DNA from: a virus | Strand: one strand, 5' to 3' | DNA length: 40,590 bases | IMG/VR virus record: IMGVR_UViG_3300050821_004937 | Coordinates: 1-40,590 of that record | Part shown: piece by piece, positions 8,942 through 38,104 of the stretch | Layout: each line of letters starts with the position of its first letter | How positions within the stretch are numbered: position 1 is the first letter of the stretch | The notes under the pieces: model-generated | Databases searched by the model: none | What the model was told of the DNA's origin: nothing | What the model saw: the letters and a program-made list of their open reading frames with translations, nothing else | Position numbers and translations under genes: made by a program

Positions 8942-10513
8942 TCAACTAATAATTTGGTCAGAAATGTAATAAGGGTGAACAATAAATCCCTGTCCTGAAT
9001 TTTGATTCCTAAATTGTATTTGAACCGAAGCAACATTGTTATTCGAGAAAGGAATTACGGTCTTTCTAAGAAGTGTGTTGCCACCCAACGTGCTTGAATC
9101 TAGGATGAACGAATCAAGCAATCCGCCTGGAATTGCCAATGAAACATTGGCGGATTTGTTGACAATATTCGTGGCGTTAAAACCATAATTTACTTGCAAA
9201 AACCAACTTCCTTGAGCATCGGTTGGAACAAGAAATGATTTGACAGGAAATTCTCCTGAATCTTGTGCAACTTCAACGGAGGTGACGCCATATCCGTCGA
9301 TCACTCCGTTAGTGTCCTCTGCATTACTTGACCCAACATCCTGCTGGTAAACAAACGTCGCATGAGAGCCTGTAAGCATCGTAACCGGAAGAGTTCCACC
9401 GTCCGTGGTGGTTCCATTGGCTCCAGGAAAAGACGTGTAAGCAATCATGGACTGAGGATTTCGACCCGTTATCTTTGATTCCCAAATCCCAAGACTATAG
9501 TTGTAAATCAGAATGATGTTCTTAGCTGTTGCACCCAAAGAACTTGTCCCATCTGTCGTCGATATCCATATCTGACTTCTCGTCGGATAATTGACGACAA
9601 TGGGATTCGTCTGTGCAATCTTGATCGTGTCAAGATAAGGCTGAATGTTGCTTCCTGGATAGGGAGGATCGCTGATATCAAGGAAGTTGGCACCGTCGAA
9701 GATGTAGACGTGATTGTTGGTTGCAACAAAACAAATATTCAACTGATTGACGTAGTCCCATGCGAGCCGAGAGCAGAGTCCTCGGCCCACTGTGAGAGTC
9801 ACCAATGGAGCCAATGTGCTTGAGCCGGAGATGACTGTTGAATACGTATAAAGCTGACCTATAGAGTTCTGTTTCCAGATCAAAAGGTTCTGGTTATAGG
9901 AGGTGAGTCCGACGATCTTGTCACCGTCATTCGCACGGAAATCAACAACACTTGTCGCTGGCCACGTCTCAGGATCTGCAACGTTAGACCAATAAACACG
10001 AGATGGATTGCTGGAATTGCCTGCAATAAAGAGAAAGTTATTCGCAACGGTGCAGACTGTGCCAGTAGGTGGAGATCCACCCAATGCAACGATGTGATTT
10101 CCAGGACCTGTCCATTTCACAGTTGTTGCATTCCCACCAACACGAACAAGGATGCTGTTAAGCAAGGCGTAATGAGGATTCGTGTCTGTGATTCCAACGT
10201 CATCTGTGATTGCTGTTGATGTCGTTCCCAAGTTCGTGATGTACTTAAAAGATTCAGCGGATGCACCGATTGATTCCGTGAAAAGATACGAATTCGCTGC
10301 GTTAAACTTCCACTGAAACATCCCCGCAACGCCACCGGGACTCGTTGAAACAAGCGCCGCTGTATTCACCTTCACAGACCCATTCGCCTTCACGAGATCG
10401 TTGTAAACGATGTAGACATTCTGCGCGTCCGTCATCTGGTCGGGCGGAAGATTGATTGAGGAGGATTTGAGATTTAAACCTCCTCGGAAACCGTATGGGC
10501 CTTTGACTGTCAT
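8942..10513 (-). CDS. P22 gp10-like tail hub / DNA-stabilisation protein
   Basis: 523 residues. The N-terminus (FRGGLNLKSSSINLPPDQMTDAQNVYIVYNDLVKANG) is characteristic of gp10-like tail accessory proteins of short-tailed phages, where a beta-propeller plugs the portal channel and carries the tail needle. Many repeated strands with YWSN, WKQNSIGQLY and LGIWE motifs fit a propeller. It follows the connector gene and precedes the fibres, the order seen in P22-like tails. Slightly longer than P22 gp10 (about 470 aa). Confidence 0.7.
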   Translation of the reverse strand: MTVKGPYGFRGGLNLKSSSINLPPDQMTDAQNVYIVYNDLVKANGSVKVNTAALVSTSPGGVAGMFQWKFNAANSYLFTESIGASAESFKYITNLGTTSTAITDDVGITDTNPHYALLNSILVRVGGNATTVKWTGPGNHIVALGGSPPTGTVCTVANNFLFIAGNSSNPSRVYWSNVADPETWPATSVVDFRANDGDKIVGLTSYNQNLLIWKQNSIGQLYTYSTVISGSSTLAPLVTLTVGRGLCSRLAWDYVNQLNICFVATNNHVYIFDGANFLDISDPPYPGSNIQPYLDTIKIAQTNPIVVNYPTRSQIWISTTDGTSSLGATAKNIILIYNYSLGIWESKITGRNPQSMIAYTSFPGANGTTTDGGTLPVTMLTGSHATFVYQQDVGSSNAEDTNGVIDGYGVTSVEVAQDSGEFPVKSFLVPTDAQGSWFLQVNYGFNATNIVNKSANVSLAIPGGLLDSFILDSSTLGGNTLLRKTVIPFSNNNVASVQIQFRNQNSGQGFIVHPYYISDQIIS

Positions 10514-16648: not shown

Positions 16649-17816
16649 TTAGGCTGTGACAGACGTTAGAAGTCCCAACTTCCGACGGTTATTCGTTGTG
16701 AGTTCCCCGGCCCAAAATACCTGTGCAACTTTGAGATCCTGGTTCGCTGGTTTGACCCATTCAGACATCGTGAAAAGACGACTCTGATGTTGGACAAGCT
16801 CAATCGCTTTCGAGTTCAAGAGATAAATATTTCCACTCGTCGCATTCGGGTCCCATGTCCACACAGCTTCCTTGTATTTCAGATTCGAGAAACCAAGGTC
16901 TCCCATGTTGACATCGGAGTAACGAACGGTAGGAATCAAGGTTGCCTCATAAGCCTCATAGCTCGTCTGATCAGACAAAAGCAGATCAGGTCCACCAGCA
17001 GGCATCTTAACAGAGACATTATCCCATGTGGTACGAAGGTCAGAGAGACCACGAGCAGCAAAGGAACCGGATGTTGTCTGAGTAGACTGCCACCACGTGT
17101 TTGTTCCACCGTTAATATCACCGACCGTGCCAGTATTAGAAATAATGGCATTAATAGGAGTGATATTAGGGCCAGTTTGAGCAGAAGAGAAGAGCTTGAT
17201 ATCAATCGTCTCTTTAAGGCTTGCAAGAGCGTTATCAATCTGCGCTTTCGCATAGTCAATCACTTGCGCCCTACCAGCATTCTGGAGTTCGATTCTTCCA
17301 GTCACACTAATAGACGCTGCTGCCTGTCTCCACTGATACTGGCTTGCTGTAAAATTATCTTGAATAGTAGTATCAAGAACATCATCGCTAGCGTAAAACC
17401 CAGCGGTTGAGTTACTACCATAAACCACCGATCTTACTATTGTTGCTCCACCTTCCTCCGTCACTCGCTTCTTGATCGTCAACCAAGCGAATAAGGGGAT
17501 TGCCTTGTGAATATTGTCTGCCAACTGCTTACCATACGTTGACAGCGTAGTCGCGATGAGGCTTGTGACATTCCTTTGTGTTAGCTCACGTTTCTGCGAC
17601 TTAAGTTATTCGTGAGAGCAGACTGTATATCCCTGGTTTCTCCAGGCCCTTGTCAGTCGTTCGAGCGCTTCGAGTCATTCGACTCCGATTGGCGCTTCGG
17701 TCTTGGCCACTTCTGGCTTTTAACCGATATTCGGGTTATGCACCGGAGAATTCCTTCTCCGATGGCCTATGTTGTTAAGCTGGACCGTAGGTGAATACTG
17801 TATCCGAAACTGCCAT
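16649..17816 (-). CDS. Major capsid protein, gene split by an intron (exons 17784-17816 and 16649-17584)
   Basis: Exon 1 begins at the ATG 17814-17816 after an AGAGAGGA ribosome site and encodes MAVSDTVFTYG before running into a stop two codons later. Exon 2 has no normal start that includes LTQRNVTSLIATTLSTYGKQ, which reads as genuine N-terminal capsid sequence continuing into LADNIHKAIPLFAWLTIKKR. Removing 17585-17783 joins the two in frame, giving 322 residues. The rest carries capsid features: SYEAYEATLIPTVRYSDVNMG, LGFSNLKYKEAVWTWDPN, GNIYLLNSKAIELVQH. The gene follows the scaffold gene, as expected. Without splicing only a protein started at the TTG 17522-17524 and lacking the N-terminus would form. 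Confidence 0.8.
17585..17783 (-). ncRNA. Small group I-type self-splicing intron in the capsid gene
   Basis: 199 nt, no internal ORF. By hand fold on the minus strand: P2 (10 bp, GGAA loop); P4 UCGGU/ACCGA with A-rich joints; P5 GCCA/UGGC; P6 AGCGC/GCGCU; P6a GAGUC/GACUC; P7 GACUG/CAGUC; P8 CCUGG/CCAGG; and the J8/7 sequence GAUAUA next to P7, the most recognisable group I core signature. P9 CUCACG/CGUGAG ends at the terminal G. Exon 1 ends in GGU, pairing with GCC so that U faces G, and exon 2 starts CUA, complementary to the adjacent UAG (P10). P3 is weak in this fold (three GC pairs), so exact ends are less certain than the call itself. Confidence 0.78.
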
Positions 17817-34105: not shown

Positions 34106-34648
34106 TCAAATTCTCTTGAATCCAAAATCTTTTTTCTTTATTTTAACCATTCTTCCGTCTGAATGGTGCCATACAATGCCTTCAATGTCTTTATCTTTAA
34201 ACCAATCTTTTAAAGCATCAAATGATCTAGGCGCATCAAGAATTTCTTTGCCATGAGGAATTAGTCGATGAATATTTTGATGTTCTGGATTCCCTTGGAT
34301 CTTAGGTCCTATTAACTCGTAAGTTCCATTTGGTTCGTTTCCTTTGAATGCTTCTAAAAACCATTTGTCGCTGGGATTTGTTGGTTCACATTGCAACCAA
34401 CCAGGCCAGTGTTTAGTGACTGGATCTGGATCTTGAGATGGGATAAATCCATATGGCGGAGTTTTGCCTTCTTTACAGTCGTAACGCTTGAATAACATCC
34501 CATCTTTAACCATGCAACACGTACCGTCATATTTGCGTGTAGCAATTCCTTCTCCATTTATTACCCATTCAGCACCCGGTACAATTGAATCTCTAACAAG
34601 ATGATCGCCATCATAATTTCTCTCAAATAGTGAGATTATTTTCTTCAT
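34106..34648 (-). CDS. RNA ligase-like nucleotidyltransferase
   Basis: 180 residues. Ligase motifs: motif I ATRKYDGTCCMV with the nucleotidylated Lys followed by DGT (about residues 37-48), FLEAFKG and ELIGPK in the position of motif III, EGIVWHH as motif IV (about 155-161), MVKIKKKDFG as motif V (about 167-176). The short size matches phage families resembling T4 RNA ligases without extra domains. Probably repairs nicked tRNA/RNA. It overlaps the exonuclease gene (ATGA). Confidence 0.8.
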   Translation of the reverse strand: MKKIISLFERNYDGDHLVRDSIVPGAEWVINGEGIATRKYDGTCCMVKDGMLFKRYDCKEGKTPPYGFIPSQDPDPVTKHWPGWLQCEPTNPSDKWFLEAFKGNEPNGTYELIGPKIQGNPEHQNIHRLIPHGKEILDAPRSFDALKDWFKDKDIEGIVWHHSDGRMVKIKKKDFGFKRI

Positions 34649-37006: not shown

Positions 37007-38104
37007 ATGAAACGCATTTCCAACCTGAAAGAGATCAACGGGATCTGGCGTTGCAATTACATCCATCCAATCACAAAAAAGCGAGTACGGCACACCCTTA
37101 AAACACGCATCTATGAAAAGGCTCTGGAGATGTACCAGAGAGAATATGGCACTGCGTTTGATCAGAAATATCTTGGGAAAGCAACGGATAAAACACTCTC
37201 GGAATTGATCGATTGGTGTTGGGATAATTACTGGCAATTCGATGAGCATGGGGCAGATAAGAAAACTCGCTACGGGTACATGAAAGCGCCAATTGATAAA
37301 TTTGGCACAGTTCAAGCAAAAACAATCACAAAAGATCAAGTCAGAGCATTCATCGCAGAGCGCATTCTAACCGTTAAGAAAAAATCAGTTGGAAATGAAA
37401 TCTCTTCAGTTGGGTTTGCGTTCAATCGTGCCATTGAAGAAGGCATGTTGAGTGAGAACCCTTTTACCAAACTTGGCAAAAGATTATTCCCAAAATATGA
37501 ATCTTCCAGGTCTAGAATAGGCTCTCAGAAAGAGATTGGCTTACTCTTGGGTCACTCAGCGGGGATGCTTCGAGCTATCGTTGAATTTGATCTTAACAGC
37601 GGTTTAAGGAAAGGTCAGATTGAGAATCTGAAACGCACGGACGTTGACTGGATCAAACGCACAATGACAGTTGAGTGTGATAAGGGGGGCCGTCATCACG
37701 TTTACGAAGTGCCCATCTATGACCGTGCAATGGAGATCCTGAAGTCGTTGCCTCAAGACACAGAGTACATTTTCACCAATCAATTCAGTCAGAAGATTCC
37801 GATTAATGGCTTGATTAAAGCCGGTTTCCCACGCCTTGTGAAACGCTGTGGCATCACTGATTTCAAGTTCCACGATCTACGCCACACATTCGCAACTGAA
37901 CTTTACCGCAATACCAAGAATCTCAAGTATGTCCAGGAAGTGCTTGGGCATACCGATGTTAAGCAAACGCAAACCTACCTGAATCTGACACACGAGGATC
38001 TGGCGCAATATAACAGCTTCCGTTTCGGTTCTGTTGAGCACAAAAATGACACAGTGACAGAAACGGAAGATGCAAACATGGTGAAAGTGACTGATAATCA
38101 ATGA
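37007..38104 (+). CDS. int: Tyrosine-type phage integrase
   Basis: 365 residues. The N-terminus (MKRISNLKEINGIWRCNYIH) is an arm-binding-type region and a SAM-like core-binding domain follows (residues 60-150). Catalytic residues: Arg in NSGLRKGQIENL (about 204), HDLRHTFATELY (His-x-x-Arg), and GHTDVKQTQTYLNL (His ... Tyr). Preceded by TAAAAAGGGGTACGC, a variant of the early leader. The TGA at 38102-38104 lies one base before the tRNA-Pro fragment, so transcription of int runs straight into attP. Confidence 0.95.
   Translation: MKRISNLKEINGIWRCNYIHPITKKRVRHTLKTRIYEKALEMYQREYGTAFDQKYLGKATDKTLSELIDWCWDNYWQFDEHGADKKTRYGYMKAPIDKFGTVQAKTITKDQVRAFIAERILTVKKKSVGNEISSVGFAFNRAIEEGMLSENPFTKLGKRLFPKYESSRSRIGSQKEIGLLLGHSAGMLRAIVEFDLNSGLRKGQIENLKRTDVDWIKRTMTVECDKGGRHHVYEVPIYDRAMEILKSLPQDTEYIFTNQFSQKIPINGLIKAGFPRLVKRCGITDFKFHDLRHTFATELYRNTKNLKYVQEVLGHTDVKQTQTYLNLTHEDLAQYNSFRFGSVEHKNDTVTETEDANMVKVTDNQ

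Follow-up and report, generated by a model that had tools for sequence, protein, structure and literature searches.

How a phage could make its major capsid protein from a gene whose long reading frame has no start codon of its own is the question raised by the minus strand at positions 17,816 to 16,649 of a 40,590-nt viral stretch (IMG/VR record IMGVR_UViG_3300050821_004937; hereafter the window). The major capsid gene is split there by a 205-nt insert, and the MAVSDTVFTYGPA frame, which opens at ATG 17816 with the ribosome site AGAGAGG upstream, meets UAA at once as the first in-frame codon of the insert. The initial annotation had noticed a ribosome site ahead of a short 5′ exon, a non-coding insert and a capsid ORF without a normal start, all of which are seen in the sequence, although the 5′ exon spans 13 codons (17816-17778) rather than the 11 given. 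Its claim that removing the insert restores one frame was confirmed on the joined exons, where U17778 joined to A17572 gives ...YGPA^NVTS... (the caret marks a splice site or join). The spliced protein is a PHROG 9953 (phrog_9953) major head protein (E 1.9e-48). Its only PHROG matches are phrog_9953 and phrog_14242, and searches of the window capsid found neither a Pfam match nor a P22-type capsid family, so that the label "P22-like" had to be dropped.

The borders of the insert were established by comparison with 17 related viral contigs, 15 of which include the N-terminal region, upstream of the capsid match. The capsid gene is uninterrupted in 14 of these 15 and reads GP(A/S/N)-N at the join (L004, for example, reads MAVSDTVFTYGPANVTSLIATTL across the junction), while the remaining one, L005, carries an insert elsewhere. 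Thus, the insert comprises 205 nt, 17777-17573, with the 5′ splice site after U17778 and G17573 as its last base, ending ...AAAGG before the AAU of the 3′ exon. The initial annotation had instead proposed a group I intron of 199 nt (17783-17585) that joins ...YG to LTQRNVTS, and these borders keep the frame too and allow a GGU/GCC P1 and a CUA/UAG P10 to be drawn. However, all 14 uninterrupted relatives have GP(A/S/N) directly before N, whereas this join would insert LTQR and lose PA; moreover, the P9 hairpin closes at 17585, 12 nt short of the true end, so that the cut falls at the P9 base and omits a tail common to the other family members. The 199-nt version is therefore highly unlikely and was rejected, the join being fixed at GPA^NVTS by the intronless relatives, and the GGU P1 and the P10 belong to the wrong borders.

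Table 1. Exons, predicted RNA elements, HNH genes and intron-bearing capsid genes
Feature	Source	Position	Strand	Details
5′ exon, major capsid gene	window	17778..17816	minus	13 codons, MAVSDTVFTYGPA; matches N-terminus of intronless relatives
Group I intron	window	17573..17777	minus	205 nt, no ORF; borders from intronless relatives
3′ exon, major capsid gene	window	16649..17572	minus	begins NVTSLIATTL, without own start codon
P1	window	17765..17780	minus	exon GCU (17780-17778) with guide GGC (17767-17765), 3 bp, U-G at splice site
P2 hairpin	window	17741..17764	minus	10 bp; both-side changes in 9/10 pairs
P3 pseudoknot	window	17647..17735	minus	CCC 17735-17733 with GGG 17649-17647, 3 bp
P4 and P5	window	17698..17726	minus	P4 17726-17722 with 17702-17698; P5 17717-17714 with 17709-17706
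P6 with P6a extension	window	17665..17695	minus	P6 17695-17692 with 17668-17665; in minimum-energy fold
P7, P8, J8/7 GAUAUA	window	17621..17658	minus	P7 17658-17654 with 17625-17621; P8 17646-17632
P9 hairpin	window	17585..17616	minus	CUCACG/CGUGAG; both-side changes in 5/6 pairs
Free-standing HNH gene	L005	2221-2730	minus	upstream of capsid gene
Free-standing HNH gene	L010	2387-2872	minus	upstream of capsid gene
Free-standing HNH gene	L012	2233-2871	minus	upstream of capsid gene
Free-standing HNH gene	L013	2374-2934	minus	upstream of capsid gene
Major capsid gene	window, L022, L028; L005			phrog_9953; L005 gene is a homologue of the window's
One related capsid gene	L040, L030, L038, L059, L060, L144, L187			L040: phrog_9953 (7.6e-6) and weak SU10 capsid match; other six placed by eye from sequence resemblance
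Intron-bearing major capsid gene	L039			phrog_138, which we take to be the T4 gp23 type
Intron-bearing major capsid gene	L148			phrog_267, weak, 1e-4
Intron-bearing major capsid gene	L175/L183			phrog_283, 34 N-terminal residues only
Intron-bearing major capsid gene	L069			resemblance of short exon only

The fold of the insert was assessed in an alignment of 14 family members, further members having been collected by exact patterns, against a P2-P9 structure written by hand, in which P3 is a pseudoknot. Because the structure was drawn from the same sequences, the 97.4% of cells that are paired is partly circular, and the both-side changes in 23/42 pairs are the stronger evidence. Compensatory changes occur in P2, P5 (3/4 pairs), P6 (one pair exchanges CG/UA/GC), P8 (5/5 pairs) and P9; none of 500 shuffles reached the observed covariation, and sliding the pairing partners abolished the signal. 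P3, P4 and P7 do not vary within phage family A, the family represented here, and thus draw no support from covariation; P4 is paired in all aligned members, and P3 reads CACC/GGUG and CUCC/GGAG in a related endonuclease-type family. Energy folding of the window alone returned the same helices (z −3.6), and the P4-P8 helices, the GACUG/CAGUC P7 and the GAUAUA J8/7 described in the initial annotation are all present in the predicted minimum-energy fold. The insert has the P3-P8 core with a P3/P7 pseudoknot that is expected of group I introns (P4-P8 by covariation or invariance, P3 with 3 bp), as well as a U that precedes the 5′ splice site and pairs with a guide G, and a terminal G (GCU^...GGC, ...AAAGG^AAU). 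The P1 arrangement of the window recurs in the first intron of L040.

A covariance model, R1, was built from 12 phage introns, excluding those of the window and L005, and was roughly calibrated. It gave a single match in the window (17560-17797, 185.7 bits, E 2e-60 by the rough calibration), placing the intron in phage family A, scored the L005 intron at 209.7 bits and found no matches in the intronless relatives. R1 had never seen the window and yet returned this E value, and with no shuffle among 500 reaching the covariation, chance is excluded. The check suggested in the initial annotation, a search with the Rfam group I models, had a different outcome: RF00028 (Intron_gpI) gave no match in the window at gathering or at E up to 10, and only 17.3 bits on L005. 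This miss, which taken literally is one of the outcomes that the initial annotation had named as refuting its reading, and the shortness of P1 and P3, 3 bp each, count against a group I assignment. However, at gathering Rfam also finds nothing in ten clear phage relatives or in the Patescibacteria members tried, so that the miss points to the sensitivity of the model; by inspection RF00028 and the window intron share the same overall architecture, and we conclude that the general model lacks the sensitivity to detect this subfamily. A blastn search of the intron and its surroundings against 50,697 phage records gave no match.

If the insertion had decayed and did not splice, the capsid gene would be broken, or its protein would come from ribosome bypassing or an internal start, and a TTG at 17524 does open a 291-aa ORF. 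However, the core helices show no damage and covary between family members, the remainder of the gene has stayed open and conserved, and the N-termini of all relatives lie upstream, at MA... or MS/MG, rather than at LADNIHKA, the start that the initial annotation had set down as speaking against an intron; the chance of such a dead insertion appears very slight. An assembly artefact or chimera might be suspected because the window is a single metagenomic contig, but the insert lies exactly at the join of the uninterrupted relatives and contains a conserved ribozyme, and a homologous intron occurs on a separate contig at another site of the same gene, which leaves this explanation a negligible probability. 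The reading that we favour, with a probability of about 0.95, is that a minimal group I intron lies between codons 13 and 14 of a phage major capsid gene and is spliced from the transcript; the initial proposal of a group I intron in this gene is thus backed by intronless homologues, the covariance model and covariation. In the transcript, the RNA would fold into P1-P9, a guanosine would attack after U17778 to free the 5′ exon, and the freed exon would attack after G17573, releasing the 205-nt intron. The predicted ligated exons read GGUCCAGCU-AAUGUC, and the joining of ...GPA to NVTS... would yield the full-length capsid protein. From unspliced mRNA, only a 13-residue peptide could be made, since UAA stands in frame at the very start of the intron.

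The near relative L005, whose capsid protein is 86% identical to that of the window, has its own insert, 188 nt long and homologous, at MAISD^T, 24 nt closer to the gene start. Neither of the two phages has an insert at the site of the other, and P1 in L005 is CGGAU^AAAAAAAUU-GUCCG, with five pairs and a U-G at the splice site. The window intron contains no endonuclease-sized ORF, in agreement with the initial annotation, since no homing endonuclease fits in 205 nt, and tblastn with HNH queries found no HNH homing endonuclease in the window; spread would therefore have to be in trans. One route, with which the recurrence of similar guide sequences at many sites is compatible, would be reverse splicing directed by the 3-5 bp guide sequence. 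The other would be help from free-standing HNH endonucleases. In four relatives their genes (Pfam HNH_3, E 5e-10 to 2e-14) are located antisense immediately before the capsid gene, separating it from the preceding, probably scaffold, gene; only one of the four, L005, also carries the intron. Collaborative homing, in which an ORF-less intron works together with a free-standing endonuclease, is discussed in the literature (for example PMC10448857). With related introns 24 nt apart in one gene of two close phages, spread without an internal endonuclease is directly testable.

Pattern scans blind to the host gene showed that ORF-less introns of ~185-205 nt recur, mostly in head genes; in most of the other members looked at, a long ORF reappears once the exons are joined. 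At scores of about 145 bits and above, the introns come from ~17 phage lineages, ~15 of which carry them in the major capsid gene, with at least four PHROG types, roughly a dozen insertion sites and up to three introns per gene; the exceptions are L025, with a weak portal match (0.027), and L078, which matches nothing convincingly. Contigs are admitted to viral collections in part for their head genes, and the apparent capsid share may be inflated by this; since many contigs measure 36-45 kb, it is unlikely to explain the whole share. Three family introns lie in one capsid-type gene of L040 (6280-6469, 6746-6935 and 7569-7752), and the same is seen in L068, where a partial match at 9262-9331 (14.8 bits) marks a likely fourth further on. 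Divergent extra introns (31-44 bits) were observed in or beside the related capsid-type gene at L038 4745-4952, L060 3191-3410 and L030 5643-5860. Related introns at L143 503-727 and L151 9604-9828 (both minus) lie in apparent tape-measure genes (L143 by PHROG), and in both a Cys-rich, HNH-like ORF begins in the P8 region.

A 19-base core searched for in 84,980 species genomes hit 32 stretches, nearly all in Patescibacteria, and 30 of them score 83-131 bits with the phage intron model. The Patescibacteria tRNA-Thr(GGU) genes (L108-L139) are interrupted directly after the anticodon, so that ordinary tRNA finders can miss them, and joining GGU to the downstream half restored the tRNA in 27/27 loci with a recognisable 5′ half. 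These introns are the nearest cellular kin of the phage introns: they share the core and, with most phage members, the GGU target and GCC guide, but they sit in a tRNA at the anticodon and not in a phage protein gene. In a quick tree of low support, phage and tRNA introns fell for the most part into separate groups. This kinship does not identify the phage host, and the failure to find the window capsid protein in 380 Patescibacteria genomes shows little, the search having had no positive control.

Elsewhere in the window, a phage integrase family protein (37007-38104, plus, E 7e-27) suggests that the phage is probably temperate. Matches were also observed to Pfam RNA ligase 1 (RLIG1; 34106-34648, minus, E 1.1e-12) and to a guanylate cyclase catalytic domain, unexpected in a phage (39571-40170, minus, E 4e-6).

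Introns in capsid genes of P22-like phages were called rarely reported in the initial annotation, which is fair, though group I introns in the capsid genes of lactococcal phage Tuc2009 and mycobacteriophage LittleE have been published, splicing of the latter having been demonstrated by RT-PCR and protein sequencing (PMC3706429). Both share with the window a capsid-gene intron with a U before it and a G at its end; compared by description, LittleE differs in its 819-bp insert with an endonuclease ORF, against 205 nt without an ORF here. The BAKA/Optimus intron (PMC3706429) is likewise small (265 nt), free of an endonuclease gene and located in a virion structural gene, but, again by description, in a tail gene rather than a capsid gene. 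The window intron is thus a new, well-supported case of a known kind; what is newer is the family associated with capsid genes. That phage group I introns favour genes of nucleotide synthesis and DNA metabolism has been called mysterious (PMC12350094); here, a tiny, coherent, endonuclease-free subfamily, unseen by Rfam at gathering, shows an apparent preference for the capsid gene instead. We tentatively suggest, at somewhat below even odds, that an ORF-less group I lineage akin to the Patescibacteria tRNA-Thr introns has specialised on the major capsid genes of phages of several unrelated types, reaching many sites via guide-directed reverse splicing or trans-acting HNH enzymes. Such a capsid specialisation, if true, would contrast with the DNA-metabolism genes that phage introns usually favour.
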